Shown here: positions 14,670 to 58,433 of the stretch, in pieces | Numbering within the stretch: position 1 is the first letter of the stretch | Layout of the letters: each line of letters opens with the position of its first letter | Source of the DNA: Patiria pectinifera | Taxonomy: Eukaryota; Echinodermata; Asteroidea; Valvatida; Asterinidae | Direction: 5' to 3' | Assembly (NCBI GenBank): GCA_029964075.1 | Contig: CM057142.1 | Span: 34,288,392 to 34,352,391, forward strand | Length of the DNA: 64,000 bases | Translations under genes and position numbers: made by a program | The notes under the pieces: model-generated | Databases searched by the model: none | Told to the model about the DNA's origin: nothing | Seen by the model: only the letters and a program-made list of their open reading frames with translations

Positions 14670-15441
14670 TATATAGATCATAAATTCCCGTTTCGGTAAG
14701 TGCGAGCCGGTAGCCAAGTCGGTAAAGTGCCGTTCTCAGATTATCAATCTAGGGGTTGGTGGTTCGAGCCCGAGGTTGTCAACAACGACATTTTTTTTTT
14801 CGTCAGAGCGTAGGGGATGGAGGACTGACGACGCCACGTGACTTTTGACGTCACCACCCTTTGGAACCGGAGGTTTATATATAATAAAAATTCCCGGCTT
14901 GGTAAGTGCGAGCCGGTAGCCAAGTCGGTAGAGTGCCATTTTCAGATTATCATTCTGGGGGTTGTTGGCTCGAGCCGGATGTTGTCAACAACGACATTTA
15001 TTTATTTTTACGTTAGAGCGGAGAATGTTGGGGGGGGGGAGGGACTGACGACGACACGTGACTTTTGACGTCACCACCCTTTGCAGCCGGAGGTTTATAT
15101 TTATTATCAATTCCCGGTTCGGAAAGTGCGAGCCGGTAGCCAAGCCGGTAGCCAAGTCGGTAGAGTGATATTTTCAGATCATCATTCTGGGGGTTGGTGG
15201 TTCGAGCCCGAGGTTGTCAACAACGACTATTTTTTTGTCAGAGCGGAGGGGATGGGGGAGTGACGACGACACGTGACATTTGACGTCACCACCCTTTGCA
15301 ACCGGAGGTTTATATATATTATAAATTCCCGATTCGGCAAGTGCGAGCTGGTAGCCAAGTCGGTAAAGTGCCGTTCACAGATCATCAATCTAGGGGTTGG
15401 TGGCTCGACGAGCCCGAGGTTGTCACCAACGACATCTATTT
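14670..15441 (+). repeat. tRNA-like tandem array, unit 1, part before the LINE
   Basis: Four monomers of the TAGCCAAGTCGG subfamily. Each has a TATA-like stretch, A box, B box (GGTTCGAGCCC type), T-run, CACGTG and TGACGTCA. The last monomer is interrupted by the LINE; its 3' 80 bp (15362-15441) is the left target-site duplication. Confidence 0.9.
15362..15441 (+). other. Left 80-bp target-site duplication of the LINE
   Basis: These 80 bases are identical to 20788-20867, including an uncommon 'ggctcgacgagcccgagg' variant that other monomers lack. That variant shows a true duplication of one monomer segment and not chance similarity between monomers. The segment runs from just after the A box, through the B box, to the T-run. 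Confidence 0.92.
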
Positions 15442-16591
15442 GAGCTCGGTCGTCGTATACGTCAAGGCACCATACGAGATGAATGACGACGTTGTAGTCA
15501 ACGCTCTTCTGCCATATGGGACTGTCGTTAATGTTAAACGACAACACCATGATTTCAACTCAGGGATTGAAAATGGGGTCAGAAGCTTGCTAATCAAACA
15601 CGTTAAGAAGCCTATCCCCAGCTACATCAAGGTTGGCAGTTTCAATCTACCGGTTCGTCATCGCGGTCAGGAGAAAACTTGCAGGATTTGCAGAAAGCCC
15701 GGACATATTGCCAGGGAATGTGAAATGAGGGGCCGGTGTTTCATCTGCGGCTCCCTTGATCACCGAGCTGAAATGCATGAAAAACTGCATGAACTACAGA
15801 GAATGCCTCCAGTAAGTCAAGTGATCCATGATCACTCATACGGTGCACCGGACGGGAGTGACAGCGAATCGGAAACGAATGATGCTCAAGTAATTGACGG
15901 GGGTACTTTAGTAATACCTGCAGAAGGGCCCGAAGAGGAAAGCCAGGAGGCAACAGAGACGGAGGTGATGGATGCGGAGAGTGACACAGAAGTACCTGAA
16001 GGAGAGTCAGAGGAGAAAAGTCAGGAGGCAACAACGCCCGAGGTGATGGATGCGGATGGTGACACAGAAGTACTTGATGAAGAGCTTGAGGAGAAAAGCC
16101 AGGATGGAACAACGCCGGAAGTGATGGATGCGGACGGAGACACCCAGTCCCAAGAAAGAGTTAGCCCCCAACAAAAGCCCCCGACCTTCTGGGATGAAGC
16201 CGTGCAGCAGGAGCGCCTAAAACGTAAGAGGAACGATGACGAGGCAAGTCCAGAAAAGAAGGTCCCTAGAGAGGAGGAAGAAAGCATGGACGCAACATCG
16301 GTACCAGATGGAAAAGAACAGCCTGGAAAAAAAGAAAGAAGTGATGATGATGAACTCTCGGCATCGGGAACTGAAAGAGTCATATCGAAGGAACAATCGG
16401 GAGACCAACATTCAAAGGAGCAAGAAAAGAATGCAAAGGGCCGTACGCCTGACAAGCAGGAAACTGTTCGACGACAAAGAAGAAGAAAGAACTCCAAGGA
16501 AAACTCACCCCAGCCGGTTGATGGTCACACAGCAAAAGAACGTAGTCCTGCTAAAGGTCGTGGTAGAGGCAGAGGTCAGTCTCCAAATTAG
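15442..16591 (+). pseudogene. LINE ORF1 (gag-like, CCHC zinc knuckles), 5'-truncated
   Basis: The frame is open from the LINE boundary to a stop at 16589-16591, with no intact start; the first in-frame ATG is at 15478. It encodes, in order, the end of an RRM-like region (VYVKAPYEMNDDVV, then GVRSLLI and KKPIPSYIKVGSF), a zinc knuckle CX2CX4HX4C, and a second knuckle CX2CX4HX4H (together about 15680-15770). Three acidic tandem repeats of about 30 residues follow (15920-16145, each with a VMDA core), then a lysine/arginine-rich tail. ORF1 proteins of this type bind LINE RNA in the retrotransposition particle. The acidic triplet repeat is unusual. Confidence 0.85.
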
Positions 16592-16650
16592 AAACTGAAT
16601 AAGGTTTTTTTTCCGCCTTCTCGAATTACGCTATTAATATTATTTTGCTG

Positions 16651-19600
16651 ATGAGTTTCTTGAATGCTTTGTCCGTTGTGACCATGAACGTTAATGGCAT
16701 CAGGGACCTTAAAAAAAGGGAGGCTCTTTTTGACGGTTTTGTTCGAAGAAAGTTTAATATTGTTTGCATTCAGGAAACTCATAGCAATAGCGCCGATGAA
16801 CATATTTGGCGCAAAAGTTGGGAAGGCGAAATTGTCTTCAGCCACGGCTCGAATCATTCTCGAGGGGTGGCTATATTAATTTCCAAGAAATGTGATCTTA
16901 AAATTTCCAATGTTGAGAAAGATGACGATGGTCGTTGGGTTATTAAAGGGAGATATTGTGTGGAACAAGAAAGTCATTTCCCTCATGTCTGTTTATGCAC
17001 CCAATCTGATCCCCGAAAGAGCTAACTTCTTCACTGATCTTAATGCTTTAATCAAGTCAGACACTGATTGGATAATAGGAGGCGATTTCAACTGTAATCT
17101 TGCTGTTTCTCCAATCGGGGATCCAAGTCGATCTGTTTTAAAACGTATGATTCATGATTCTGATCTTATTGACACTTGGATGACTATTCACCCTAATGAC
17201 CCCGGTTATACATTTTATAGCAGGGCTCACAAGACTTCTTGCAGAATTGATTACATTTTTGTTTCCTCCTTTTTCAGTCATCAATTGGTGGATATTTGTG
17301 CATGTATGAACGGCCTGACTGATCATAAATTTGTCAAGCTGAAGCTTGAAAACTGTATGACCCCTCATGGAAATGGTCGCTGGATCTGCAATAATGAGCT
17401 CCTTAGGGATGTGGATTGTTCTAACAGAATTTGTAACTTTTGGAATTTTTGGAAGTTGAACAAGACTAATTTTAGCTCTCTCATGGAATGGTGGGAAACA
17501 GGAAAGTTTAGGCTCAGAGAAATTGTTCAAGATTTCGGTCGTGAGAAAGCCTTTCTTGAAAAACGGCAGATCAATCTTCTTAACAATCGTTATGACGACT
17601 TGATCAATAGCCCCGGTGACAATAAAGATGAGATTAATAATATTTTGAGAGACCTCAAAGAGTACGAGATGAAAGAATGGGAGAGAGCTAAAGTTAGGGC
17701 TCGCAACATCCACAAAACAGAAGATGAAAACCTAGCAAATTTTTTTCTTAACCTTGAGAAACATCACATCGAAAGTGGTTCCATGACTAAGATTCTTGAT
17801 TGTGATGGCAATTATGTGGATGATCCTGAAAAATGTTCAACTGTGTCAACACTTTTATCATAATTTGTACAGTTATGAAGAGATTAATTTTGACAGTCTG
17901 AATGATATCCTTGATGACATTGACACAGAGTATTTTGATGAAAATGCTATTGACTTGGGTAAAGATATCTCCAAGCTAGAAATCAAGAAAGCTCTGCACG
18001 ATATGAACAAAAATAAATCTCCGGGTATTGATGGTTTAACAGTAGAGTTTTATCAAGAGTTTTGGGATATTCTAGGTCAAGACCTGCTCGATGTGTTTAA
18101 AGAGTGTAAGAAGAAAGGTATTTTGACTAAGACCATGAATACTGCTCTGGTACGTCTTATATATAAAAATTCTGGTTGCAAACATGATTTGAAGAATTGG
18201 CGCCCCATTAGTCTTTTAACTGTAGATTATAAAATAATGTCCAAGGTTATTATGAACAGGCTTGGGACTATTATGCCCAGCCTTATAGGAAAAGATCAAA
18301 CTTACGGCGTTCATAATCGTAGCATTCACGACAATCTCATGGTTTTACGCGACACTGTCGATTATGTTAATTGTTTTGATAGAGAGGCGGCTATTGTCAG
18401 CATTGACCAAGAAAAGGCGTTTGATAGAGTTAGCTGGAATTATATGTTCAGTGTCATGAATAAAATGGGTGTCCCACAGAGTCTTATTGGGTGGATTAAA
18501 CTTCTCTATAGCGGTCCTTTGTGTAGAGTTATGATGAATAATTTTATAGGTGCGCCTATTGAAATTGGCAGAGGTATTAGGCAAGGCTGCCATCTTGTCG
18601 CCCTCATTGTATGCTATTTGTGCTGAAGGGCTGGCTAATCTTATCAGAAAGAACGATTCTTTTGGTGGGGTTAGCATTCCCAACAGCTATGACTGTATTA
18701 AGCTTATTCAACATGCGGATGATACTTCTGTTTTATTTCTTCTAATCTTGAATTTGATTGTCTTAGCTCCACTTTGCAGACCTTTTGTAGCGGCAGTGGA
18801 TCGAAAGTTAACGTTCAGAAGACCAAAGGACTTTGGCTGGGGAGTTGGAAAAATCGTAATGACAAGCCCCTTGGCTTTGATTGGCACAACGATAAATTAA
18901 AAATTTTGGGCATTTTTTCGGAAATGACGTTCCTGCAGAAGATAATTGGGGACCCAGGGTGAAAAATTGAAAAATACACTTAATCTTTGGCGCACTCGAA
19001 ATCTCACTTTGAAAGGTAAAGCTGTTATTGTGAATAGTCTTTTGGTTCGGGGTTGTCGTACTTTGGCAGCATCCTCCCATGTCCGGATCAATGGGTTAAA
19101 GAAATGGACGCCATTATCTTCAAATTCTATTGGCATTCTAAGCCAGAGAAAATAAAAAGAAACAACATTAGGCTCCTAGAAACCTCGGAGGAACGGGTCT
19201 TTTGAATGTTCAAGCAAAATCCACAGCTGCAAGCTTAAATGGTTAGCTAACTTCTAAAGCGTCTGGCACGTGGCGTTCTTGGTTTAACTTTTGGGTTTGT
19301 GAAGCCAGTGGGCCCAATCGATTAGGCTGGTATGTGTTCAACAATTGTAAAGATTTAAAAGAATTCCTCCTTTTATCAGGAAGTCATGAAGGCGTTTGAT
19401 AAGTCCGGTGGGATAATTAAATGTAATATTTCTTGTGTTCGCGAAGCTCAACAAGTACCCTTGTTCAAAAATGATATCATTACTGGTAATCAGGATAAAG
19501 AAATAGACAGCATTTGTTTTAGAACTCATGGAATCACTTTGTTGCACCATGTTTGTTCCAATGGTCGGTTCCTCACTCCACGGCAAATTACTGATCGGTA

Positions 19601-20414
19601 CAATGTTCACCCTAGAGGTGCCAGTCAAGTTCTCAATAGGTTGCGCAAATTTATTTGCCCCGATTTGTTTAATGAGAATCGTATTGGACCTCAAAATCAC
19701 GTTTCTAACTGGCTTGAAATAAGAGATTTTTCTGATCAGTCGGAAAATATGTCTGTCCGTGACCTAACTGTCAAAATTTGTTATAACAATTTTCGAATGA
19801 AAGATTTTATTGAGCCATGGGCACAGCAGAAATGGCAGGAAATTCTTAACATTAGTACCGATTTAGACTGGACTACTATTTGGAAACGGGGAAATAATAA
19901 GCACCTTGACCACGACGAAATAGACATCTGGTATAAGATTAAACATCGCATTATCCCAACAAAAACATGGCTAAACACAATAGGTATCACCGAAGACGAC
20001 CACTGTATTTTATGTAACTCGCAACCTGAAACTATTGAACACTTGTTTTTGTACTGTATTAAGACTCTTCCTTCTTGGCTTTTTGTAGAACATATTTTGA
20101 AAAAATTCACAGGGAACAAGTACTTCTTTCTCAACGATGAAAATAGAATTCTGGGTTCAGGGGGGAATGTAAGCAACATCACTAGCTTGATTCTCATAGC
20201 AAAACTTTTGAAAGTTATTTGGAATTCGCGATGTGCCATTTCGTTAAACTATATTGACTCCGATGTTGATATGCTGCAAAGATTCAAAACTAACCTGAAG
20301 CGTTTTGTTTACTTTGAAAAAAGCAGATTAGATGACAAAGAATTCCAGAAATTGTATCTTAGAAATAGTGCCATTTGTGAAATTGTTGACAACAAAATCC
20401 GCTTTGCATATTGA
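16651..20414 (+). pseudogene. LINE ORF2 (endonuclease-reverse transcriptase), frameshifted
   Basis: It starts at ATG 16651, 59 bp after the ORF1 stop. The apurinic endonuclease domain shows QETH (16771), GDFN (17081), RIDYIF (about 17243) and TDHK (about 17318). The RT domain shows SPGIDG (about 18018), SIDQEKAFDR (about 18399), GIRQGC (18573) and HADD in place of YADD (18712-18723); the two catalytic aspartates are present. A CX2C...HX4C motif lies at about 20003-20057. The frame changes near 16950, 17850, 18590, 18735, 18950 and again at about 19130-19390, so no full protein can be made. The last segment (19386-20414) is open to the end. Confidence 0.88.
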
Positions 20415-20787
20415 CCTGTATTGTTTGTGCTTTCCCGGCTGATTGATATTTTTTTTTTATTTTTTTTCCTTTTTTGAGATCCATATGAATCTCAGTCATT
20501 TTTGTACATACGTTGTAGATATTTGTACAGTTACGGGTTTATTTTTTATTCATAATTTTTTCAGTTTGAGCTACGATCAGAATATCATTTAGAAACGTTT
20601 AGGATACGTAAACGTAAAATGTATATCTATATTTTATTGCTTTCAAATGATTTATTTTGTTTAATTTCCCGGCTCATCAGTTACTCTGTTTACTGAATTT
20701 GTTTCCTTTTCGAATTGTTTGAATTTGACATTTGTGTTTGAATAAATGAGTTTTCTTAAACTCTACAGAGAGAAAAAAAAAAAAAAA
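20415..20787 (+). terminator. LINE 3' UTR, AATAAA and A tail
   Basis: T-rich 3' UTR with AATAAA at 20741-20746, about 25 nt before the A-rich tail that joins directly to the right target duplication. Confidence 0.75.
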
Positions 20788-20867
20788 GGTAAAGTGCCGT
20801 TCACAGATCATCAATCTAGGGGTTGGTGGCTCGACGAGCCCGAGGTTGTCACCAACGACATCTATTT
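20788..20867 (+). other. Right 80-bp target-site duplication of the LINE
   Basis: Base-for-base copy of 15362-15441, after which the interrupted monomer resumes with its T-run and GC-rich part. Target duplications of most LINEs are about 5-20 bp, so 80 bp is long. Confidence 0.92.
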
Positions 20868-23800
20868 TTTTCCCGTCAGAGCGGAGGGGGTGGGAGACTG
20901 ACGACGACACGTGACTTTTGACGTCACCACCCTTTGTAACCTTAGGTTCATTTATATTATAAATTCAAAACATTTCAAGTGCGAGCCGGTAGCCTAGACG
21001 GAAGTGTGCCGTTCTCAGATCTTCAATCGCGGGGTTGGTGGTTCGAGCCCCTGGTTGTCATTTACGACATTTATTTTTTTTCTGCGGAGGGGGCGGGCTG
21101 CGGAATTGATGACGACACGTGACTTTTGACGTCACCACCCTTTGCAACCTGAGGTTCATATATTTTATAAATTCAAAACAGTTCAAGTGCGACCTGGTAG
21201 CCTAGACGGTAGAGTGCCGTTCTCAGATCTTCAATCGCGGGGTTGGTGGTTAGAGCCCCAGGTTATCATTTACGACATTTTTTTTTTTTAAGCAGAGCGG
21301 AGGGGGCGGGCTGCGGAATTGATGAGGACACGTGACTTTTGACGTCACCACCCTTTGCAACCTGAGGTTCATATATATTATATTTCAACACCTTTCAAGT
21401 GCGAGCCGGTAGCTCAGTCGGTAGAGTGCCATTCTCAGATATTCAATCGCGGGATTGGTGGTTCGAGCCCCAGGTTGTCATCTGCGACAATTATTATTTT
21501 TTTCGACGCGTAAGCGGAGGGATTGATGAGGACAGGTGACTTTTGACGTCACCACCCTTTGCAACCTGAGGTTCATATATATTATATTTCAACACATTTC
21601 AAGTGCGATCCGGTAGCTCAGTCGGTAGAGTGCAATTCTCAGATATTCAATCGGAGGGTTGGTGGTTCGGGCTCCAGGTTGTCAGCTGCGACAATTATTA
21701 TTTTTTTCGACACGTGCGCGGAGGGAGCGGGGTGAGGGATTGATGACGACACGTGACTTTTGACGTCACCACCCTTTGCAACCTGAGGTTCATATATATT
21801 ATATTTCAACACATTTCAAGAGCCCCAGGTTGTCATTTGCGATATTTATTATTTTTTTCGACACGGGAGCGGAGGGATTGATGAGGACAGGTGACTTTTG
21901 ACGTCACCACCCTTTGCAACCTGAGGTTCATATATATTATATTTCAACACATTTCAAGTGCGATCCGGTAGCTCAGTCGGTAGAGTGCCATTCTCAGATA
22001 TTCAATCGGAGGGTTGGTGGTTCGGGCTCCAGGTTGTCATCTGCGACAATTATTATTTTTTTCGACACGGGAGCGGGGTGAGGGATTGATGACGACACGT
22101 GCCTTTTGACGTCACCACCCTTTGCAACCTGAGGTTCATATATATTATATTTCAATACGTTTCAAGTGCGAGACGGTTGCTCAGTCGGTAGAGTGCCATT
22201 CTCAGATATTCAATCGCGGGGTTGGTGGTTCGAGCCCCAGGTTGTCATTTGCGATACTTATTATTTTTCGATTTTTTTTTTCGACAGAACGGAGGAGGCG
22301 GGCTGCGGAATTGATGACGACACGTGACTTTTGACGTCACCACCCTTTGCAACCTGAGGTTCATATATTTTATAAATTCAAAACATTTCAAGTGTGACCC
22401 GGTAGCCTAGTCGGTAGAGTACCGTTCTCAGATCTTCACTTGCGGGGTTTGGTTCGAGCCCAAGGTTGTCATCTACGACGTTTATTTTGTTTCCTCAGAG
22501 CGGAGTGGGCGGTGTGAGGGATTGGTGTCGACACGTGACTTTTGACGTCACCACCCTTTGCAACCGGACGTTCATATATATTATAAATTCCAAACATTTC
22601 AAATGCGAGCCGGTAGCCTAGTCGGTAGAGTGCCGTTCTCAGATCTTTAATCGTGGGGTTGGTGATTCGAGCCCCAGGTTGTCATTTGCGATATTTATTA
22701 TTTTTCGATTTTTTTTTTCGACAGAACGGAGGGGGCGGGCTGCGGAATTGATGACGACACGTGACTTTTGACGTCACCACCCTTTGCAACCTGAGGTTCA
22801 TATATATTATATTTCAATACGTTTCAAGTGCGAGACGGTTGCTCAGTCGGTAGAGTGACATTCTCAGATATTCAATCGCGGGGTTGGTGGTTCGAGCCCC
22901 AGGTTGTCATTTGCGATATTTATTATTTTTCGATTTTTTTTTTCGACAGAACGGAGGGGGCGGGCTGCGAAATTGATGACGACACGTGACTTTTGACGTC
23001 ACCACCCTTTGCAACCTGAGGTTCATATATTTTATAAATTCAAAACATTTCAAGTGCGACCCCGTAGCCTAGTCGGTAGAGTACCGTTTTCAGATCTTCA
23101 CTTGCGGGGTTTGGTTCGAGCCCAAGGTTGTCATCTACGACGTTTATTTTGTTTCCTCAGAGCGGAGTGGGCGGTGTGAGGGATTGATGTCGACACGTGA
23201 CTTTTGACGTCACCACCCTTTGCAACCTGTGGTACATATATATTATACATTCCAAACTTTCCAAGTGCGAGCCGGTAGCCTAGTCGGTAGAGAGTCGTTC
23301 TCAGTTCTTCAATCGCGGGGTTGGTGGTTCGAGCCCCAGGTTGTCATCTTCGATATTTTTTTTGTTTCGTCAGGGAAGTGGGCGTTGTGAAGGATTGGTG
23401 TCGACACGTGACTTTTGACGTCACCACCCTTTGCAACCGGACGTTCATATATATTATAATTTCCAAACATTTCAAATGCGAGCCGGTAGCCTAGTCGGTA
23501 GAGTGCCGTTCTCAGATCTTCAATTTTGGGGTTGGTGATTCGAGCTCAAGGTTGTCATCCACGATATTTTAATTTTTTTTCGTCAGAGCGGAGTGGGCGG
23601 TGTGAGGGATAGATGTCAACACGTGACCTTTGACGTCACCACACTTTGCAACCTGAGTTAGCCTAGTTTGTAGAGTGCCGTTTTCATATCTTCAATCGCG
23701 GGGTTGGTGGTTCGTGACAACCCAGGTTGTCATCTACGATATTTGTTTTTTTCGTCAGAGTGGAGGGGACTGTGTGAGAGATTGATGAAGACACGTGACT

Positions 23801-26424
23801 TTTGACGTCACCAACCGTTGCGACCTGATGTTAAAATATATTATAAATTACAAACATTTCAAGTGCGAGCCGGTAGCCTAGTCGGTAGAGTGCCGTTCTC
23901 AGATATTCAATCGCGGGGATGGTGGTTCGAGCCCCAGGTTGTCATCTGCGACATTTACCGTTTTTTCGACAGAGCGGAGGGGGCGGGGTGAGGGATTGAT
24001 GACGACACGTGACTTTTGACGTCACCACTCTTTGCAACCTGTGGTTCATATTTATTATATTTCAACACATTTCAAATGCGAGCCGGTTGCGCAGTCGGTA
24101 GAGCCCCGTTCTCAGATATTCAAACGCGGGGTTGGTGGTTCGAGGCCCAGGTTGTCATTTGCGACATTTTTTCTTTTTTCGACAGAGCGGAGGGGGCGGG
24201 GTGAGGGATTGATGACGACACGTGACTTTTGCCGTCACCACCCTTTGCAACCTGAGGTTCATATATAAATGATATTTCAACACATTTCAAGCCGGTAGCT
24301 CAGTCGGAAGTGTGCCGTTCACAATTCTTCAATTGCGCGATTGGTGGTTCGAGCCCCAGGTTGTCATCTGCGACATTTTTTTTTCGACAGAGCGGAGGGG
24401 GCGGGGTGAGGTTCATATATATTAAAAAATCAAAACTTTTCAGGTGCGAGCCGGTAGCCTGGTCGGTAGAGTGTCCTTCTCAGATCTTCAATCGCGGGGT
24501 TGGTGGTTCGAGCCCGAGGTCGTCATCTGCTATATTTATTCATCTACTATATTCATTTATTTTTTTCGTCAGAGAAGAGGGGGCGGTGTGAGGGATTAAT
24601 GTCGACACGTGACTTTTGACGACACCAACCTTTGCAACCTGAGGCTCATATGTATTATGAATTCAAAACATTTCAAGTGCGAGCCGGTAGCTCAGTCGGT
24701 AGAGTGCCATTCTCAGATCTTCAATCGCCAGGATGGTGGTTCGAGCCCAAGGTTGTCATTTGCGACATTTTTTTTTTTCGACAGAACGGAGGGGGCGGGG
24801 TGAGGGATTGATGACGAAACCGGTAGCTCAGTCGGAAGTGTGCCGTTCACAATTCTTCAATCGCGCGGTTGGTGGTTCGAGCCCCAGGTTGTCATCTGCG
24901 ACATTTTTTTTTTCGACAGAGCGGAGGGGGCGGGGTGAAAGATTGATGACGACACGTGACTTTTGATGTCACCACCCTTTGCAACCTGAGGTTCATATAT
25001 ATTATATTTCCACACATTTCAAGTGCGAGACGGTTGCTCAGTCGGTAGAGTGCCGTTTTCAGATATTCAATCGCGGGGTTGGTGGTTCGAGCCCCACTTT
25101 GTCATCTGCGACATTTATTATTTTTTTGACACGTGAGCGGAGGGGGCGGGTCGAGGGATTGATGACGACACGTGACTTTTGACGTCACCACCCTTTGCAA
25201 CCTGAGGTTCATATATATTATATTTCAACACATTTCAAGTGCGAGCCGGTTGCTCAGTCCGTAAAGTGCCATTCTCAGATCTTCAATCGCGGGGTTGGTG
25301 GTTCGAGCCCCAGGTTGTCATTTGCGATATTTTTTTTCGACAGAACGGAGGGGGCGGAGTGAGGGATTGATGACGACACGGGACTTTTGCAACCCCCCTT
25401 TGCAACCTGAGGTTCATATTTATTATATTTCAACACATTTCAAGTGCGAGCCGGTTGCTCAGTCCGTAGAGTGCCATTCTCAGATCTTCAATCGCGGGGT
25501 TGGTGGTTCGAGCCCCAAATTGTCATCTGAGACATTTATTATTTTTTTGACACGTGAGCGGAGGGAGCGGGGTGACGGATTGATGACGACACGTGACTTT
25601 TGACGTCACCACCCTTTGCAACCTGAGGTTCATATATATTATATTTCAAGAATTTTCAAGTGCGAGCCGGTAGCTCAGTCGGCAGAGTGCCGTTCTCAGA
25701 TCATCAATCGCGGGGTTGGTGGTTCGAGCCCCACGTTGTCATTTTTTTTTCGACAGAACGGAGGGGGCGGAGTGAGGGATTTATGACGACACGTGACTTT
25801 TGCAACCCCCCTTTGCAACCTGAGGTTCATATTTATTATATTTCAACTCATTTCAAGTGCGAGCCGGTTGCTCTGTCCGTAGAGTGCCGTTCTCAGATCA
25901 TCAATTGCGGGGTTGGTGGTTCGAGCCCCACGTTGTCATTTGCGACATTTTTTTTCGACAGAACGGAGGGAGAGCAGTGAGGGATTGATGACGACACGTG
26001 ACTTTTGCAACCCCCCTTTGCAACCTGAGGTTCATATTTATTATGTTGCTCAGTCCGTAGAGTGCCATTCTCAGATCTTCAATCGCGGGGTTGGTGGTTC
26101 GAGCCCCAGGTTGTCATGTGCGACATTACATGTACTTTTTTTTCTACAGATCGGAGGGGGCCTGAGGTTCATATATATTATACTTCAACTCATTTCAAGT
26201 GCGAGCCGGTAGCTCAGTCGGTAGAGTGCCATTCTCTGATCTTCAATCGTGGGTTTGGTGGTTCGAGCCCCAGTTTGTCATTTGCGACATTAATTTTTTT
26301 TCGACAGAGCGGAAGGCGCGGGGTGAGGGATTGATGACGAAACGTGACTTTGACGTCACCACCCTTTGCAACCCAAGGTTGTCATTTCCGACATTTTTTT
26401 TCGACAGAGCGGAGGGAGCGGGGG

Positions 26425-26788
26425 CGTAATTTGTTTTCCTTGGAGGGTTAGGGGCAATGTCATGAATAATTCAGTTTTTCCTTTGAATCATTGCAAGACT
26501 TAGGTTCTCGTTCTATTTTCCCCTTAATTTAAAATTAAAAAAATAGCTGATGAAAATGAGCAGCGACGACGTCGTGGATTCGAACCAGGGATCTTTGTAT
26601 CCATAGCTCATCTCTCTATCCACTAGGCTACTGTGTGGTAGCTCGACGACAGCCGTTCTTTAAAATGCTTTAATGTATTGTAACTAGTTGAGTAACTAAC
26701 AACATTGCTGTTGATGTCATTGTCCGTTCTCATGGATAAACATTATGCATGACATTGCCCCTAAACCCTCCTAGGAATAAAAACTACG
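26425..26788. mobile_element. Inverted-end element inserted in the array, with antisense tRNA-like core
   Basis: A 364-bp unit unlike the monomers, with imperfect inverted ends that begin CGTA(A/G)TTT and share GGAGGGTT(T)AGGGGCAATG. Its core (26565-26640) on the minus strand reads an A box TAGCCTAGTGGATAGAG and a B box GGTTCGAATCC. It looks like a MITE that carries or captured a tRNA-like sequence. The corresponding place in unit 2 (about 51200) lacks it. Flanking G-rich sequence prevents a clear call of the target duplication. Confidence 0.7.
26565..26640 (-). ncRNA. tRNA-like core inside the array insertion
   Basis: The minus strand has consecutive A-box and B-box matches about 30 nt apart, as in a tRNA or tRNA-derived SINE. 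A functional cloverleaf is not evident to me by eye. Confidence 0.45.
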
Positions 26789-27449
26789 CGGGCGGGGTTA
26801 GAGATTGTTGACGACACGTGACTTTTGACGTCACCACCCTTTGCAACCTGAGGTTCATATATGTTATATTTCAACTCATTTCAAGTGCGAGCCTGTTGCT
26901 CAGTCGGTAGAGTGCCATTCTCAGATATTCAATCGCGGGTTTGGTGGTTCGAGCCACAGGTTGTCATTTGCGCCTTTTTTTTTTCGACAGAGCGGAAGGG
27001 GCGGGGTGAGGGATTGATGACGACACGTGACTTTTGACGTCACCACCCTTTGCAACCTGAGGTTCATATTTATTATATTTCAACACATTTCAAGTGCCAG
27101 CCGGTAGCTCAGTCGGTAGAGTGCCGTTCTCAAATCTTAAATCGCGGGATTGTTGGTTCGAGCCTCAGGTTGTCATCTGCGACATTTATTCTCTTCGAAA
27201 GAGCGGAGGGGGAGGGGTGAGGGATTGATTACGACACGTGACTTTTGACGTAACCACCCTTTGCAGCCTGAGGTTCATATGTATTATATTTCAATACGTT
27301 TCAAGTGCGAGCCTGTAGCTCAGTCGGTAGAGTGCCATTCTCAGATATTCAATCGCAGGGTTGGTGGTTCGAGCCCCAGGTTCTCATCTGCGACATTTAT
27401 TATTTTTTTTCGACAGAACGGAGGGGGCGGGGTGAGGGATTGATGACGA

Positions 27450-27623
27450 CACGTGACTTTTGACGTCACCACCCTTTGCAACCTGAGGTTCATATATATT
27501 ATATTTCAATACATTTCAAGTGCGAGCCTGTAGCTCAGTCGGTAGAGTGCCATTCTCAGATCTTCAATCGCGGGGTTGGTGGTTCGAGCCCTAGGTTGTC
27601 ATCTGCGACATTTACTTTTTTTT
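27450..27623 (+). promoter_or_regulatory. Representative monomer: composite Pol III-type unit
   Basis: One well-preserved monomer annotated in full: E-box CACGTG 27450-27455; CRE/ATF TGACGTCA 27461-27468; TATA-like TATATATTATATTT from 27493; A box TAGCTCAGTCGG 27531-27542; B box GGTTCGAGCCC 27581-27591; hairpin TGTC 27597-27600 with GACA 27607-27610; T-run 27616-27623. The CRE lies about 65 nt and the TATA about 33 nt before the tRNA-like head. The layout matches known composite Pol III promoters; activity is inferred. Confidence 0.65.
27525..27623 (+). ncRNA. Candidate Pol III small RNA (representative monomer)
   Basis: The expected transcript is about 100 nt, from just upstream of the A box to the T-run. 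The D-arm pairs (GCTC with GAGT), but the anticodon, T and acceptor stems do not, so it is not a tRNA. A GGGG...CCCC stem around the B box and the terminal TGTC/GACA hairpin could form instead. About 100 related copies exist in the window. There is no expression evidence in sequence alone. Confidence 0.4.
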
Positions 27624-45053: not shown

Positions 45054-45179
45054 TTAGTTCTCTTTATAAAAAAGTTGTCTTTATAGGCGAGGAAACGCGC
45101 CGGGATGAGTCGACATTTTTTTAAGGAATAATCGTCGAAGAGCCAAATAAAATATATTATAAATAATAAATATATTATA

Positions 45180-45345: not shown

Positions 45346-45907
45346 GCCTATCTTTTGTTTGTAAACATTGGCGCCATTTTGTATGGGCTGCCGTAAGCGC
45401 ATAAATTGAAGCCGTGGTTTGCAACATATTTTTCCAAAATAGTCCTCATAACGCCATCAACACATATATAAAAAGGAATGTGTAGGAATTATTTTGTAGC
45501 TTTGTTGAAAACTAGTGCAGGGCCCTTCAAAAAAATGCACCTGTTCGGTAGGGGCAATTTCAAAATGCTCATATTATGCAAACAACGCACACGATTCAAT
45601 TGTGTTGTTTTCACAGGTTAAACTCACACTCATAGGTTGAGCGCACTTTGTACATGTCGCCATACATCCCCGGCACTGATATTCACCCATACGACGGACA
45701 GACAGACAGACCGACCGACAGACAGACAGACCGACAGACAGACAGACAGAGATTCCTGGAATTATTTTAAGGATGTTGTATTTTCAAGTATCAAATAATA
45801 TTTTGGTGATCTGTAATAACTCTTCTTCGCTTTTGCAGTGTTGGACCTTCCATAGTTTTGCAGGCCGTGGTTGGAGAAAATTCATTTTGCCAACCAAGCG
45901 CAGAAAG

Positions 45908-48900: not shown

Positions 48901-51900
48901 TTTTTTTCGACGGAGTGGAGGGGGCGGGGTGAGGGATTGATGACGAAACGTGACTTTTGACGTCACCACCCTTTGCAACCTGAGGTTCATATATATTATA
49001 TTTCAACACATTTCAAGTGCGAGCCGGTTGCTCAGTCGGTAGAGTGCCGTTTTCAGATATTCAATCGCGGGGTAGGTGGTTCGAGCCCCAGATCGTCATC
49101 TGTGACATTTACTATTTTTTTCGACACGTGAGCGGAGGGAGCGGGGTGACGGATTGATGACGACACGTGACTTTTGACGTCACCACCCTTTGCAACCTGA
49201 GGTTCATATATATTATATTTCAAGAAATTTCAAGTGCGAGCCGGTAGCTCAGTCGGTAGAGTGCCATTCTCAGATATTCAATTACGGGGTTGGTGGTTCG
49301 AGCCCCAGATTGTCATCTGCGACATTTATTATTTTTTTCGACACGTGAGCGGGGTGACGGATTGATGACGACACGTGACTTTTGACGTCACCACCCTTTG
49401 CAACCTGAGGTTTATATATATTATATTTCAAGAAATTTCAAGTGCGAGCCGGTAGCTCAGTCGGTAGAGTGCCATTCTCAGATATTCAATCACGGGGTTT
49501 GTGGTTCGAGCCCCAGATTGTCATCTGCGACATTTATTATTTTTTTCGACACGAGAGCGGGGTGACGGATTGATGACGACACGTGACTATTGACGTCACC
49601 ACCCTTTGCAACCTGAGATTCATATATATTATATTTCAACACATTTCAAGTGCGAGCCGGTTGCGCAATCGGTAGAGTGCCGTTCTCAGATATTCATTCG
49701 CGGGGTTGGTGGTTCGAGCCACAGATTGTCATTTTCGAAATTTATTATTTTTTTCGACACGTGAGCGGAGGGAGCGGGGTGACGGATTGATGACGACACG
49801 TGACTTTTGACGTCACCCCCTTTGCAACCTGAGGTTCATATATATTATATTTCAAGAAATTTCAAGTGCGAGCCGGTAGCTCAGTCGGTAGAGTGCCATT
49901 CTCAGATATTCAATTACGGGGTTGGTGGTTCGAGCCCCAGATTGTCATCTGCGACATTTATTATTTTTTTCGACACGTGAGCGGGGTGACGGATTGATGA
50001 CGACACGTGACTTTTGACGTCACCACCCTTTGCAACCTGAGGTTCATATATATTATATTTCAAGAAATTTCAAGTGCGAGCCGGTAGCTCAGTCGGTAGA
50101 GTGCCATTCTCAGATATTCAATTACGGGGTTGGTGGTTCGAGCCCCAGATTGTCATCTTCGACATTTATTATTTTTTTGACAGGTTTACAGAGGGAGCGG
50201 GGTGACGGATTGATGACGACACGTGACTTTTGACGTCGCCACCCTTTGCAACCTGAGGTTCATATATATTATATTTCAAGAAATTTCAAGTGCGAGCCGG
50301 TAGCTCAGTCGGTAGAGTGCCATTCTCAGATATTCAATCACGGGGTTGGTGGTTCGAGCCCCAGATTGACATCTGCGACATTTATTATTTTTTTCGACAC
50401 GTGAGCGGGGTGACGGATTGATGACGACACGTGACTTTTGACGTCACCACCCTTTGCAACCTGAGGTTCATATATATTATATTTCAAGAAATTTCACGTG
50501 CGAGCCGGTAGCTCAGTCGGTAGAGAGGCATTCTCAAATATTCAATTACGGGGTTGGTGGTTCGAGCCCCAGATTGTCATCTTCGACATTTATTATTTTT
50601 TTCGACAGGTTTACAGAGGGAGCGGGGTGACGGAGTGATGACGACACGTGACTTTTGACGTCACCACCCTTTGCAACCTTAGGTTCATATATATTATATT
50701 TCAAGAAATTTCAAGTGCGAGCCAGTAGCTCAGTCGGTTGGTTCGAGCCCCAGATTGTCATCTGCGACATTTTTTTTTCGACAGAACGGAGGGGGCGAGT
50801 GAGGGATTGATGACGACACGTGACTTTTGCAACCACCCTTTGCAACCTGAGGTTCATATTTATATTTCAACACATTTCAAGTGCGAGCCGGTTGCTCGGT
50901 CGGTAGAGTGCCATTCGCAGATCTTCAATCGCGGGGTTGGTGGTTCGAGCCCCAGGTTGTCATTTGCGACATTTACTTTTTTTTGACAGATCGGAGGGGG
51001 CAGGGTAAGGGATTGATGACGACACGTGACTTTTGACGTCACCACCCTTTGCAACCTGTGATTCATATTTATTATATTTCAATACATTTTAAGTGCGAGC
51101 CGGTAGTAGAGTCGGTAGAGTGCCATTCTCAGATATTCAATAGCGGAGTTGGTGGTTCGAGGACCAGGTTGTCATTTGCGACATTTTTTTTTTGACAGAG
51201 CGGAGGGGGCGGGGTTAGAGATTGTTGACGACACGTGACTTTTGACGTCACCACCCTTTGCAACGTGAGGTTTATATATGTTATATTTCAACTCATTTCA
51301 AGTGCGAGCCTGTTGCTCACTCGGTAGAGTGCCATTCTCAGATCTTCAATCACAGGTTTGGTGGTTCGAGCCCCAGGTTGTCATTTGCGCCTTTTTTTTT
51401 CGACAGAGCGGAGGGAGCGGGGTGAGAGAATGATGACGACACGTGACTTTTGACGTCACCACCCTTTGCAACCTGAGGTTCAGATATGAATGATATTTCA
51501 ACTCATTTCCAGTGACATTCTCAGATCTTCAATCGCGGGGTTGGTGGTTCGAGCCCCAGATTGTCATCTGCGACATTTGTTTTTTTTTTCGACAGAACGG
51601 AGGGGGCGGGGTGCGGGATTGATGACGACACGTGACTTTTGACGTCACCACCCTATGCAACCTGAGGTTCATATATATTATATTTCAACACATTTCAATT
51701 GCGAGCCGGTTGCTCAGTCGGTAGAGTGCCGGTCTCAGATATTCAATCGCGGGGTTGGTGGTTCGAGCCCCAGGTTGTCATCTGCGACAACTTTTTTTTT
51801 CCGCAGGGCGGAGGGAGCGGGTCGAGGGATTGATGACGACACGTGATTTTTGACGTCACCACCCTTTGGAACCTGAGGTTCATATATATTATATTTTAAC

Positions 51901-54900
51901 ACATTTCAAGTGCGAGCCGGTTTCGCAATCGGTAGAGTGCCGTTCTCAGATCTTCAATCGCGGGGTTAGTGTTCGAGCCCGAAGTTGTCATCTGCGACAT
52001 TTGTCTGTTTTTGGACAGAGCGGAGGGGTGGGGTTAGGGATTGATGACCACCCGTGACTTTTGACGTCACCACCCTTTGCAACCTGAGGTTCATATATAT
52101 TATATTTCAAAACAATTCAAGTGCGCGCCGGTAGCTCAGTCGGTAGAGTGCCATTCTCAGATCTTCAATCCCGGGGTTGGTGGTTCGAGCCCCATGTTGT
52201 CATCTGTGACAATTTTTTTTCGACCTGAGCGGAGGGGGCGGGGTGAGGGATTGATGACGACACGTGACTTTTGTCGTCACCACCCTTTGCAACCTGAGGT
52301 TCATATATATTATATTTCAATACATTTCAAGTGCGAGCCGGTAGCTCAGTCGGTAGAGTGCCATTGTCAGATCTTCAATCGCGGGGTTGGTGGTTCGAGC
52401 CCCAGGTTGTCATTTGCGACATTTTTTTTTCGACAGAACGGAGGGGGCGGGGTGAGGGATTGATGACGACACGTGACTTTTGACGTCACCACCCTTTGCA
52501 ACCTGAGGTTCATTAATATTTTATTTCAATACGTTTCAAGTGCGAGCCGGTAGCTCAGTCGGTAGAGTGCCATTCTCAGATCTTCAATCGCGGGGTTGGT
52601 GGTTCGAGCCCAGGTTGTCTTTTGCGACATTTCTTTTTTTCGACAGAACGGAGGGGGCGGGGTGAGGGATTGATGACGACACGTGACTTTTGTCGTCACC
52701 ACCCTTTGCAGCCTGAGGTTCACATATATTATATTTCAATACATTTCAAGTGCGAGCCGGTAGCTCAGTCGGTAGAGTGCCATTCTCAGATCTTCAAACG
52801 CGGGGTTGGTGGGTCGAGCCCCAGGTTGTCATCTGCGACAGGTTGTCATTTTTTTCGACACGGGAGCGGGGTGAGGGATTGATGACGACACCTGACTTTT
52901 GTCGTCACCACCCTTTGCAACCTGAGGTTCATATATATTATATTTCAATACATTTCAAGTGCGAGCCGGTAGCTCAGTCGGTAGAGTGCCATTGTCAGAT
53001 CTTCAATCGCGGGGTTGGTGGTTCGAGCCCCAGGGTGTCATTTGCGAAATTTATTATTTTTTCGAAACGGGAGCGGTGTGAGGGATTGATGACGACAGGT
53101 GACTTTTGACGTCACCACCCTTTGCAACCTGAGGTTCATTAATATTTTATTTCAATACGTTTCAAGTGCGAGCCGGTAGCTCAGTCGGTAGAGTGCCATT
53201 CTCAGATCTTCAATCGCGGGGTTGGTGGTTTGAGCCCCAAGTTGTCATCTGCGACATTTTTTTTTGGACACGTGAGCGGAGGGGGCGGTGTGAGGGATTG
53301 ATGACGACAGGTGACTTTTGACGTCACCACCCTTTGCAACCTGAGGTTCATATATATTATATTTCAATACATTTCAAAGGCAAGCCGGTAGCTCATTCGG
53401 TAGAGTGCCATTCTCAGATCTTCAATCCCGGGGTTGGTGGTTCGAGCCCCAGGTTGTCATAGGCGACATTTTTTTTCGACACGTGATCGGAGGGAGCGGG
53501 GTGAAGGATTGATGACGACACGTGACTTTTGACGTCGCCACCCTTTGCAACCTGAGGTTCATATATATTATATTTCAATACGTTTCAAGTGCGATCCGGT
53601 AGCTCAGTCGGTAGATTGCCATTCTCAGATCTTCAATCGCGGGGTTGGTGGTTCGAGCCCCAGGTTGCCATCTGCGACATTTGTTTTTTTTGGACAGAAC
53701 GGAGGGGGCGGGGTGAGGGATTGATGACGACACGTGACTTTTGACGTCACCACCCTTTGCAACCTGAGGTTCATGAATATTATTTTTCAATACGTTTCAA
53801 GTGCGTGCCGGTAGCTCAGTCGGTAGAGTGCCATTCTCAGATCTTCAATCTCGGGGTTGGTGGTTTGAGCCCCAGGTTGTCATTTGCGACAGGTTGTCAT
53901 TTTTTTCGACACGGGAGCGGGGTGAGGGATTGATGACGACACGTGTCTTGTGACGTCACCACCCTTTGCAACCTGGGTTCATATATATTATATTTCAAAA
54001 CAATTCAAGTGCGAGCCGGTTGCTCAGTCGGTAGAGTGCCATTCTCAGATATTCAATCGCGGGGTTGGTGGTTCTAGCCCCAGGTTGTCATCTGCGACAT
54101 TTTTATTTTCGACACGTGAACGGGGTGAGGGATTTATGACGACAGGTGACTTTTGACGTCACCACCCTTTGCAACCTGAGGTTCTTCAATATTATATTTC
54201 AATACGTTTCAAGTGCGAGCCGGTTGCTCAGTCGGTAGAGTGCCATTCTCAGATCTTCAATCGCGGGGTTGTTGGTTCGAGCCCCAGGTTGTCATCTGCG
54301 ACATTTTTTTTTTCGACAGAACGGAGGGGGCGGGGTGAGGGATTGATGACGACACGTGACTTTTGTCGTCACCACCGTTTGCAACCTGAGGTTCATATAT
54401 AATATATTTCAATACATTTCAAGTGCGAGCCGGTAGCTCAGTCGGTAGAGTGCCATTGTCAGATCTTCAAACGCGGGGTTGGTGGGTCGAGCCCCAGGTT
54501 GTCATGTGTGACATTTTTTTTTCGACACGTAAGTGGAGGGAGCGGGGTGAAAGATTGATGACGAAAGGTGACTTTTGACGTCACCACCGTTTGCAACCTG
54601 AGGTTCATATATATTATATTTCAATATAATATAATGCCCCAGGTTGTCATTTTCGACATTTATTATTTTTTTCGACAGGTGAGCGGAGGGAGCGGGGAGA
54701 GGGATTGATGACGACACGTGACTTTTGACGTCACCACCCTTTGCAACCTGAGGTTCATATATATTATATATCAACACAGTTCAAGTGCGAGCCGGTTGCT
54801 CAGTCGGGAGAGTGCCGTTCTCAGATCTTCATTCGCGGGGTTGGTGGTTCGAGCCCCAACTTGTCATGTGCGACATTTATCATTTTTTTCGAAACGGGAG

Positions 54901-57900
54901 CGGGGTCAGCGATTGATGACGACACGTAACTTTCACGTCACCACCCTTTGCAACCTGAGATTCATATATATTATATGTAAATACATTTCAAGGGAGAGCC
55001 TGTAGTTCAGTCGGTAGAGTGCCATTGTCAGATCTTCAATCGCGGGGTTGGTGGTTCGAGCCCCAGGTTCATGTGCGACATTTTTTTTCGACAGGTGAGC
55101 GGAGGGAGCGGGGTGAGGGATTGATGACGACACGTGACTTTTGACGTCACCACCCTTTGCAGCCTGAGGTTCATATATATTATATTTCAACACATTTCAA
55201 GTGCGAGCCGGTTGCTCAGTCGGTAGAGTGCCGTTCTCAGATAATCAATCCCGGGGTTGGTGGTTCGAGCCCGAGGTTGTCATCTGCGACATTTATTATT
55301 TTTTTCGACACCTGAGCGGAGGGAGCGGGGTGAGGGATTGATGACGACACGTGACTTTTGACGTCACCACCCTTTGCAACCTGAGGTTCATATATATATA
55401 TTATATTTCAGTACGTTTCAAGTGCGATCCGGTAGCCCAGTCGGTAGAGTGCCGTTCACAGATCTTCAATCGCGGGGTTGGTGGTTCGAGCCCCAGGTTG
55501 TCACCTTCAACATTTGTTTTTTTTTCGACAGAACGGAGGGGGCGGGGTGAGGGATTGATGACGACACGTGACTTTTGACGTCACCACCCTTTGCAACCTG
55601 AGCTTCATATATATTATATTTCAGTACGTTTGAAGTGCGATCCGGTAGCCCAGTCGGTAGAGTGCCATTCACTGATCTTCAATCGCGGGGTTGGTGGTTC
55701 GAGCCCCAGGTTGTCACCTTCGACATTTGTTTTTTTTTTCGACAGAACGGAGGGGGCGGGGTGAGGGATTGATGACGACACGTGACTTTTGACGTCACCA
55801 CCCTTTGCAACCTGAGGTTCATTTTGATTTTATTTCAACACATTTCAAGTGCGAGCCGGTAGCTCAGTCGGTAGAGTGCCGTTCTCAAGTATTAAATGGC
55901 GGGGTTGGTGGTTCGAGGCCCAGGTTGTCATTTGCGACATTCATTTTTTTTTCGACAGAGCGGAGGGGGCGGGGTTAGAGATTGATGACGACACGTGAGT
56001 GTAGGGGTCGCAACCTGAGGATTGATGGTCGATTTGAAGACGACACTTGCGAGCCGGTAGCTCAGTCGGTAGAGTGCCGTTCTCAAATCTTGAATCGCGC
56101 GGTTGGTGGTTCGAGGTTAAATCGCGGGGTTGGTGATTCGAGGCCCAGGTTGTCATCTGCGACATTTTTTTTTTCGACAGAGCGGAGGGGGCGGGGTGAG
56201 GGATTGATGACGACAGGTGACTTTTGATGTCACCACCCTTTGCAACCTGAGGTTCATATATAAATTATATTTCAACACATTTCAAGCCGGAAGCTTAGTC
56301 GGTAGAGTGCCATTCTCAGATAATCAATCGCAGGGTTGGTGGTTCGAGCCCCAGGTTGTCATCTGCGACATCTATTATTTTTCGACAGAGTGGAGGAAGC
56401 GGGGTGAAAGATTGATGACGAAAGGTGACTTTTGACGTCACCACCGTTTGCAACCTGAGGTTCATATATATTATATTTCAATACGTTTCAAGTGCGAGCC
56501 GGTAGCTCAAACGGTAGCTCAGTCGGTAGAGTGCCATTCTCAGAAATTCAATCGCGGGGTTGGTGGTTCGTGCCCCAGGTTGTCATTTTCGACATTTATT
56601 ATTTTTTTCGCCAGAACGGAGGGGGCGGGGTGAGGGATTGATGACGACACGTGACTTTTGACGTCACCACCCTTTGCAACGTGTGGTTCATTTTGATTAT
56701 ATTTCAACACATTTCAAGTGCGAGCCGGTAGCTCAGTCTGTAGAGTGCCGTTCTCAAGTATTAAATGGCGGGGTTGGTGGTTCGAGGCCCAGGTTGTCAT
56801 TTGCGACATTCATTTTTTTTCGACAGAGCGGAGGGGGCGGGGTTAGAGATTGATGACGACACGTGAGTGGAGGGGGCGGGTCGAGGGATTGATGGTCGAG
56901 GGATTGAAGACGACACTTGCGAGCCGGTAGCTCAGTCGGTAGAGTGCCGTTCTCAAATCTTGAATCGCGCGGTTTGTGGTTCGAGGTTAAATCGCGGGGT
57001 TGGTGGTTCGAGGCCCAGGTTGTCATCTGCGACATTTTTATTTTCGACAGAGCGGAGGGGGCGGGGTGAGGGATTGATGACGACAGGTGACTTTTGATGT
57101 CACCACCCTTTGCAACCTGAGGTTCATATATAAATTATATTTCAACACATTTCAAGCCGGAAGCTTAGTCGGTAGAGTGCCATTCTCAGATAATCAATCG
57201 CGGGGTTGGTGGTTCGAGCCCCAGGTTGTCATCTGCGACATCTATTATTTTTCGACAGAGCGGAGGGGACGGGGTTAGGGATTTATGACGACACGTGACT
57301 TTTGACGTCACCACCCTTTGCAACCTGAGGTTCATATGTATTATATTTCAATACGTTTCAAGTGCGAGCCTGTAGCTCAGTCGGTAGAGTGCCATTCTCA
57401 GATAATCAATCGCGGGATTGGTGGTTCGAGCCCCAGGTTGTCATCTGCGACATCTATTATTTTTTTAGACACGGGAACGGGGTTAGGGATTGATTACGAC
57501 ACGTGACTTTTGACGTCACCACCCTTTGCAACCTGAGGTTCATATGTATTATATTACAATACGTTTCAAAGGCGATCCTGTAGCTCAGTCGGTAGAGTGC
57601 CATTCTCAGATATTCAATCGCGGGGTTGGTGGTTCGAGCCCTAGGTTGTCATCTGCGACATTTACTTTTTTTTCGACAGAGCGGAGGGGGCGGGGTGAGG
57701 GATTGATGACGACACGTGACTTTTGACGTCACCACCCTTTGCAACCTGAGGGTCATATGTATTATATTTCAATACGTTTCAAGTGCGAGCCTGTAGCTCA
57801 GTCGGTAGAGTGCCATTCTCAGATAATCAATCGCGGGGTTGGTGGTTCGAGCCCCAGGTTGTCATTTGCGACATTTTTTTTTCCGACAGAGCGGAGGGGG

Positions 57901-58433
57901 CGGGGTAAGGGATTGATGACACGTGACTTTTGACGTCACCACCCTTTGCAACCTGAGGTTCATATGTATTATATTACAATACGTTTCAAAGGCGATCCTG
58001 TAGCTCAGTCGGTAGAGTGCCATTCTCAGATATTCAATCGCGGGGTTGGTGGTTCGAGCCCTAGGTTGTCATCTGCGACATTTACTTTTTTTTCGACAGA
58101 GCGGAGGGGGCGGGGTGAGGGATTGATGACGACACGTGACTTTTGACGTCACCACCCTTTGCAACCTGAGGGTCATATGTATTATATTTCAATACGTTTC
58201 AAGTGCGAGCCTGTAGCTCAGTCGGTAGAGTGCCATTCTCAGATAATCAATCGCGGGGTTGGTGGTTCGAGCCCCAGGTTGTCATTTGCGACATTTTTTT
58301 TCCGACAGAGCGGAGGGGGCGGGGTAAGGGATTGATGACACGTGACTTTTTACGTCACCACCCTTTGCAACCTGTGGTTCATATTTATTAAATTTTATTA
58401 TATTTCAACACATTTCAAGTGCGAGCCGGTACC
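45908..58433 (+). repeat. tRNA-like tandem array, unit 2
   Basis: About 60 monomers without a LINE. The same subfamily order as in unit 1 is seen: TAGCCAAG types (45908-46480), TAGCCTAG types (46550-47650), then TAGCTCAG and TTGCTCAG types. Higher-order repeats are clear: a 420-bp dimer at 57526-57945 is repeated almost exactly at 57946-58365, and a block at about 55850-56400 recurs at 56715-57270. The array ends at the 3' end of the unknown gene, as in unit 1. Confidence 0.92.
46461..46480 (+). other. LINE-free counterpart of the insertion site
   Basis: In unit 2 the TAGCCAAG monomer preceding the interrupted one is joined directly to the sequence that in unit 1 follows the right target duplication. 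The target monomer itself is missing as well as the LINE, so this is not a simple empty site. Confidence 0.7.

Follow-up and report, generated by a model that had tools for sequence, protein, structure and literature searches.

The window, i.e., the whole stretch of 64,000 nucleotides that was analyzed, is C14:34288392-34352391 of the Patiria pectinifera genome. A first-pass annotation had described it as holding about 100 tandem tRNA-like units in a single array (positions 14670 to 58433), most of them with CACGTG, a CRE, a TATA-like stretch, an A box, a B box, and a T-run at fixed spacing, and had taken these for candidate small-RNA genes of RNA polymerase III (Pol III), possibly vault-RNA-like, or for a tandemized SINE. 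In the literature searched (open-licence papers only), no description of this repeat or of its associated LINE was found, and the P. pectinifera genome paper, in its available text, reports that 89.36% of repeats were left unclassified by the first tool (PMC10511450).

Two arrays of a tandem repeat on duplicated segments

The tandem repeat, whose ~210-bp unit we call T1, is confirmed. A total of 103 nhmmer matches 120 nt or longer (array 1, 44; array 2, 59), two of which overlap, correspond to ~102 units in the window, and every match lies on the plus strand (n = 103). The earlier count of about 100 units thus stands, but the single continuous array does not, since there are two arrays, each on its own copy of a ~31-kb duplication. 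Array 1 is split by a 5.3-kb LINE (15442-20787) into a left part (14670-15441) with four units of an older subfamily (nhmmer matches 14670-14816, 14815-15023, 15035-15251, and 15250-15446) and a right part (20788-29657) with 40 matches of at least 120 nt, including the two that overlap. Array 2 (45906-58441; 59 matches of at least 120 nt) contains no LINE. The sole unit in the ~16 kb between the arrays is a relic at 45179-45367, the counterpart of an isolated old T1 relic at 13930-14118 (plus strand) that retains body, T-run, linker, E-box, CRE, and TATA.

Because the flanks of arrays 1 and 2 are 95 to 99% alike over long stretches, we read the window as two copies of a ~31-kb segment; loci L040 to L042 point to at least one further copy nearby. 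The end units and some inner units of each array still pair with orthologues in the other at up to 99.5% identity (94 to 98% for the first three units of the left part of array 1), which means that an array predates the segmental duplication, and the inner blocks have expanded separately in each copy. An insert missing from the second segment copy (11692-12015, plus strand) consists of a 55-bp T1 promoter piece adjoining a 101-bp piece of LINE ORF1 (11756-11856; 88% identity to 15599-15699), besides which no second copy of the LINE was found in the window. Two minus-strand coding regions were also noted: a receptor ORF (5226-6185) that is 98% identical over 92% to a Patiria miniata protein, and a protein (29653-30603) adjoining array 1, for which there was no Pfam match and one distant relative.

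Promoter boxes are conserved between arrays

The layout of T1 is illustrated by one unit of array 1 (plus strand), which comprises an E-box, CACGTG (20908-20913); a CRE, TGACGTCA (20919-20926); a TATA-like stretch (20951-20963); an A box (20990-21001); a B box, GGTTCGAGCCC (21040-21050); and a T-run that is a candidate Pol III terminator (21070-21081). The exact extended CRE, TGACGTCACCACCC, occurs 71 times in the window, including twice in isolated relics, with 0.00 occurrences expected from shuffles. The fixed spacing described earlier holds well, with 11 nt between E-box and CRE in 56 of the 60 units that have both exactly and 50 nt between A box and B box in 41 of 46 units, but strictly intact units are a minority: among 90 units of at least 185 nt, strict definitions were satisfied by the E-box in 73, the CRE in 72, TATA[AT]A in 57, the A box in 60, the B box in 72, TTTT in 88, and all six elements together in 19.

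The first-pass annotation had proposed excess conservation of the boxes over the rest of the unit as a test of its reading. Within the window alone, such an excess is weak. Parsimony changes per column, computed on a tree of 91 window units, were fewest in the CRE (1.5), in the CACCCTTTG directly after it (1.4), and in the B box (2.2), which stand out, and higher in the A box (3.1) and in the E-box and TATA (3.3 for both), which do not. The linker is the fastest-changing part (5.59 changes per column versus 2.5 to 2.8 upstream). Random placements were as conserved as the observed ones in 1,519 of 20,000 cases for the five blocks, in 1,952 of 20,000 for the A and B boxes within the body, and in 3,992 of 20,000 for E-box, CRE, and TATA within the unit; the last three elements together have no fewer changes per column (2.77) than the upstream columns outside them (2.49). 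In the window, then, the proposed excess applies to the CRE and partly to the B box only; for the five boxes jointly it emerged between arrays.

The promoter pattern CACGTGACNTTTGACGTCACC has 1,757 exact places genome-wide, and a 21-base promoter core with at most two mismatches has 2,974; the reversed controls gave 0 in both searches, and a pattern scan of viral contigs found nothing. T1 arrays were seen on C2, C3, C13, C14, C15, C21, and C132. Among the first 100 promoter places listed (of 1,757), 99 lie in arrays and the last lies in a run of two to three partial units. Fifteen array samples (166 units of at least 180 nt) were compared and, for the column counts, reduced to seven lineages, whose arrays each hold or adjoin a LINE copy and were hence reachable without the promoter pattern. 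Conservation between arrays on different chromosomes is clearly concentrated on the E-box, CRE, TATA, A box, and B box: 7 of 49 columns in the five boxes are variable versus 63 of 157 outside them (Fisher's exact test, P = 0.0009), and 246 of 20,000 random box placements were as low in variable columns. Across the 166 units, the E-box was present in 147, the CRE in 116, TATA[AT]A in 145, the strict A box in 127, the strict B box in 126, and TTTT in 164. Counting against this pattern, the C2 arrays near 10.3 Mb have a perfect CRE in 0 of 28 units, with TGGCGTCA in its place; C21b has a strict B box in 0 of 9 units; and, within the body only, the A and B boxes (5 of 22 columns variable) do not differ significantly from the remainder (25 of 71). 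Array-wise homogenization is evident.

T1 resembles tRNA-Lys genes

When the T1 body was compared with 16 tRNA genes and 4 other D-arm sequences from the same genome, tRNA-Lys(TTT) genes gave the best alignment: L123 scored 63, whereas the highest score among 200 shuffles run against the 16 tRNA genes was 44. By this similarity, the body is tRNA-Lys derived. T1 has retained about three base pairs in the D stem, the anticodon stem, and the T stem alike. Of ten array consensuses, three have a complete D stem and one has a complete T stem; none has a complete anticodon or acceptor stem, although three or four of the seven acceptor pairs are kept. ARAGORN in its standard modes found no tRNA gene in T1; lowering the threshold to 70% gave 257 matches and the mitochondrial mode gave 11, all of which were treated as noise. 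At gathering score, a search of the window against Rfam returned no family at all, and no tRNA match appeared in the two sub-regions tried either. These negatives and the incomplete cloverleaf stems rule out intact tRNA genes.

Vault RNA and 7SL genes combine CRE, TATA, and internal boxes, and this likeness, noted in the first-pass annotation, is what speaks for a relative of either. Beyond the negative result in the window, Rfam yielded neither vault RNA nor 7SL at E values up to 10 in the two sub-regions tried, and the best similarity among the sequences compared was to tRNA-Lys, so that we regard such a relationship as highly improbable and have dropped it. The tandemized SINE, as it was put forward, is not supported by the promoter places listed, of which 99 of the first 100 lie in arrays, nor by the LINE in the window, which has no sequence in common with the unit; a comparison of this LINE with the window revealed no 3' tail shared with T1.

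The composite arrangement of upstream elements and internal boxes, by contrast with these assignments, was borne out: A box, B box, and terminator lie at the standard distances of a Pol III type-2 gene, and these distances match those in the available text of PMC10137851. The RNA itself appears less constrained. Folding z-scores against the shuffle mean were -1.0, -1.4, and -2.5 for three T1 units, and covarying column pairs are scattered and do not line up into helices. Because the stems are also incomplete, it seems to be the boxes and not an RNA fold that are kept in T1, and selection on a fold was rejected. A Pol III RNA of ~100 nt from solo T1 units is plausible from this arrangement.

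A LINE inserted mostly at one base step in the A box

The LINE in array 1 (15442-20787, plus strand) is 5' truncated and encodes, in several reading frames, a zf-CCHC ORF1, an APE-type endonuclease, a reverse transcriptase (RT), and a zf-RVT domain (PF00098, PF03372, PF00078, and PF13966), followed by an A-rich tail. A protein search with ORF1 returned 24 proteins, none of them named. The element is flanked by an 80-bp target site duplication that runs from inside the A box to the T-run (15362-15441 and 20788-20867, plus strand); the two copies are identical and cannot be extended on either side, and the first base of the right copy is unit column 106.

The 3' end of the LINE had at least 41 scored matches in the genome, of which 20 (window included) were nearly whole at 95% identity or more and one was partial at 97%. 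In 15 of these 21 near-identical copies, spread over six contigs, the 3' junction lies at T1 column 106 (107 in L051), i.e., between bases 10 and 11 of the A box (GTC^GG in the consensus), and 18 of the 21 are within T1. Counting against a single site are three T1 copies away from it (at column 82, at column 20, and in antisense orientation), one copy in T2 (another tRNA-like tandem repeat, on C19), and two outside such repeats. The A-box insertions number at most 14 independent events, because in L049 the segmental duplication has repeated the window insertion. Insertions such as this one, and the two C21 copies that share their 5' flank, could be products of array expansion. L047 and L058 have a common 3' flank and different 5' sides.

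Diverged relatives (20 matches at 70 to 82% identity, with 17 flanks read) are mostly located elsewhere, which also counts against a T1 preference: 15 of the 17 flanks are not T1, ten of these sharing one common non-T1 flank and five lying elsewhere. The two in T1 are L064 (77% identity), again at column 106, and L066 (79% identity), at the TATA stretch. The genome contains 99 exact TAGCTCAGTCGGTAGAGC sites, including tRNA-Lys genes, and 1,584 sites with GTYGG, yet 0 of the 21 flanks of near-identical copies proved to be such a site, which rules out real tRNA-Lys genes as the main target. By its domains and common insertion site, the LINE is a target-specific non-LTR retrotransposon, and its specificity for the T1 repeat had been missed in the first-pass annotation.

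Full-length LINE copies begin with a piece of T1

We examined the 5' regions of 18 copies, namely L034 (~5.74 kb, with a full 5' end) and 17 others; the full 5' end is present in 15 and not in the other 3. Each of the 15 carries a T1 head in front of the LINE body (TTTTTTTGCCC...); the head reads ...AGTGCGAGCCGGTAGCCCAGTCGGTAGAGTGCC[A/G]TTCTTCGATCGTCAGTTTTGGG or a close variant, and its TGCGAG stands 53 to 55 nt before the T-run. The last 23 bases of the head are constant for the LINE, with zero to two differences in 13 of the 15 copies; the heads of L084 and L093 are shifted by one base and, judged by eye, each has at most two substitutions and one T more or fewer. Compared with the local array consensus, these 23 bases differ at seven to nine positions in C2_8.87, C3, C15, C21, and C132, at five in C13d, at three in C2_10.33, and at one in C13a and C13b. 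Because of this single difference, the head probably derives from a C13a/b-like unit.

Two copies away from the usual site offer a view of where the head begins. L080 (C19, inside T2) shows the duplication GATTCAGCAG and then TGCGAGCC; L088 (antisense, in a C13 array) shows GGTAAG and then TGCGAGCC. Both heads thus start at TGCGAGCC. Shared letters leave an uncertainty of 3 nt, so that the start can be placed only within the AGT of AAGTGCGAG (20978-20980 in the example unit), and it counts against precision that only these two copies, each ambiguous by 2 to 3 nt, define it. The L080 head is nearest to C21a and C2_8.87 units; the L088 head, despite its location in a C13 array, matches C132, C14, and C15 units without a difference over 23 nt. 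Each of these assignments depends on one diagnostic base, which likewise weighs against the reading that follows. With this reserve, we read the two heads as the 5' ends of RNAs begun in a source T1 unit and running into the LINE. From the deduced +1, TATA would begin at about -31 and the A box at about +11, and the B box follows the A box at a distance of 39 nt. This fits type-2 geometry as given in the available text of PMC10137851 (TATA-like box at -31/-24, box A 11 bp from the start, and box B 30 to 40 nt further).

Upstream of the LINE, the T1 TATA stretch is in register in 12 of the 15 full-length copies, 11 of which have an exact E-box; L080, L088, and L093 lack an in-register T1 TATA. 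Neither an E-box nor a CRE was found in the 154-nt 5' untranslated region (5'UTR) of L034, which rules out the LINE 5'UTR as the source of these elements, an origin that the insert at 11692-12015 had suggested.

T1 as landing site and probable promoter donor

We consider it probable that T1 serves as the landing site and promoter donor of a site-specific LINE, as rDNA does for R2. In this scheme, a tRNA-Lys-derived T1 with its own E-box/CRE/TATA promoter would have spread as tandem arrays over several chromosomes, with a transcription start that lies ~31 nt downstream of the first base of TATA and 10 nt upstream of the A box. The APE-type LINE would nick T1 inside the A box (GTC^GG) and use target-primed reverse transcription to insert there, which would usually leave a full-length copy just behind an intact T1 promoter. 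Its RNA, if transcribed from that promoter, would start with the T1 head, which would be carried into every new copy and help to restore the junction: cDNA of the head may anneal or join to the upstream T1 half, placing the new copy behind an intact local promoter. The nick in the A box, transcription from T1, and the carried head would together make T1 both landing site and promoter.

A competing reading, in which T1 is a working tandem family of Pol III small-RNA genes and the LINE a mere parasite with its own promoter, is a serious candidate that falls somewhat short of an even chance. The type-2 geometry with its T-run, the strict A and B boxes in roughly three-quarters of the 166 units, and the precedent of rodent 4.5SH, with hundreds of tandem copies (PMC10137851, in its available text), argue for it. 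Against it, no consensus has all cloverleaf stems, neither covariation nor z-scores indicate a conserved fold, and the A and B boxes are no better kept than the rest of the body; an L034 5'UTR devoid of E-box and CRE and a T1 head before every full-length LINE also count against it. It is unlikely that the LINE instead took up the head once from T1 and has since kept it as a fixed 5'UTR whose A box serves as promoter, with no need for the T1 promoter. The near constancy of the 23 bases before the T-run in all 15 copies and the presence of an A box agree with such a 5'UTR, but the 5' part of the head varies among copies and is similar now to one array type, now to another (on a single base in each of the two off-target copies), the T1 TATA stretch stands in register upstream of 12 copies, and the head lacks a B box and ends before TTTTTTT, which acts as a stop for Pol III. 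A still less favored view is that T1 is an inert satellite whose promoter-like parts go back to an ancestral element and have been preserved by homogenization of the arrays. Homogenization is indeed seen, few window units are strictly intact, and the boxes show little excess conservation there; against inertness stand the between-array conservation concentrated on the boxes, the linker as the fastest-changing part of the window units, and LINE 5' ends that indicate a start inside T1.

For the LINE in its role as user of the T1 promoter, Pol II is the more likely polymerase, because the LINE mRNA would have to pass the TTTTTTT behind the head; the A box, B box, and T-run of solo units fit Pol III. 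A tentative extension, which we hold to be possible and rather doubtful as a whole, is a dual use of T1: solo units would yield short Pol III RNAs, and once a LINE has landed in the A box, that same E-box/CRE/TATA promoter would, from an unchanged start, drive a full-length Pol II LINE mRNA, the LINE having no promoter of its own and rebuilding the promoter-head junction at each insertion. Were this true, a tRNA-Lys-derived host repeat would be maintained across chromosomes together with a dependent LINE, and the T2 tandem family might fill such a role for another, related lineage of LINEs. The off-target LINE copies would amount to a natural 5'-end map of the transcription start in T1, and the arrays provide thousands of natural variants of a composite promoter.

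Comparison with known systems

R2 and R1 are site-specific LINEs in rDNA, and the starfish LINE resembles both in being a site-specific LINE in a tandem repeat. The R2 endonuclease is restriction-like; unlike R2, the starfish LINE has an APE-type endonuclease, an A-rich tail, and a tRNA-derived target with a TATA/CRE promoter. R2 is cotranscribed with its target, and no promoter of its own was detected, according to the available text of PMC12203849. The T1 case, if true, would extend such borrowing of target transcription to a different target class, and an APE-type LINE in a tRNA-derived repeat with its own CRE/TATA promoter makes the idea of promoter borrowing testable.

The CCHC ORF1 and A-rich tail of the starfish LINE presumably fit the Tx1 group, a placement based on these features. 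Elements that combine target specificity with an APE endonuclease belong to the Tx1 and R1 clades (PMC4640811; Tx1 also in PMC3747384), and the Tx1 group (L1 clade) shares with the starfish LINE both target specificity and the APE-type endonuclease; the available excerpts of these two papers mention no tRNA-derived target for the Tx1 group such as the starfish LINE has. Excerpts of PMC4640811 also describe tRNA-gene-specific non-LTR elements, NeSL-1_TV, LIN15_SM, and LIN25_SM, which belong to a NeSL-related lineage with a restriction-like endonuclease and reside in tRNA genes, whereas the starfish LINE is of the APE type and occupies a degenerate tandem repeat rather than the 99 TAGCTCAGTCGGTAGAGC sites. 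TRE5-A of Dictyostelium, like the starfish LINE, is guided to loci with A and B boxes, as far as the text of PMC5391098 that was available goes, but inserts ~47 bp upstream of tRNA genes, whereas the starfish LINE favors a single base step within the A box.

The T1 arrays have their closest parallel here in rodent 4.5SH, whose type-2 Pol III genes likewise stand in tandem by the hundreds and have a TATA-like box at -31/-24. The 4.5SH repeats are 4 to 5 kb long, 7SL derived, and of demonstrated expression in the available portion of PMC10137851, whereas T1, known from its sequence, has a ~210-bp unit that is apparently tRNA-Lys derived and carries an E-box and a CRE.

Other tRNA-like repeats and LINE-related sequences

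A second tandem family of tRNA-like repeats (T2), with a period of ~152 bp and, on the opposite strand, the B box GGTTCAAATCC, was observed at four loci of the P. pectinifera genome (L108, L109, L110, and L134; C19:19.89 Mb and C1:17.1 and 17.9 Mb). At L109 and L110, T2 is adjoined by 5'-truncated relatives of the site-specific LINE, which match it at 70 to 72% at the 3' end; ten such relatives have a near-identical 3' flank in common. A 176-bp 3' fragment of the LINE (L133, positions 3295 to 3470; C1:22.208 Mb) and a tRNA-Lys gene cluster are ~2 kb apart. Exact tRNA-Lys D-arm motifs are clustered at C6:3795075-3799510 and C6:10386335-10388543, often at a spacing of 157 to 181 bp, and possibly represent a further tandem tRNA-Lys-like repeat.

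Other features of the window

Outside any unit of T1, the ~210-bp tRNA-Lys-derived repeat, the sequence at 13735 to 13800 (minus strand) reads as tRNA-like but degenerate and includes a B-box-like GGTTTCGAATCCC. A 317-amino-acid ORF (29653 to 30603, minus strand), for which a Pfam search returned no match, has its final codons inside the last T1 unit of array 1, itself internally deleted, and a shorter version of this ORF is found at the end of array 2. The window also carries two copies of a rhodopsin-type receptor gene (5226 to 6185 and 35862 to 36821, both minus strand), and six of the closest Patiria miniata relatives, whose contigs are recorded with identical lengths, are probably located on one chromosome.
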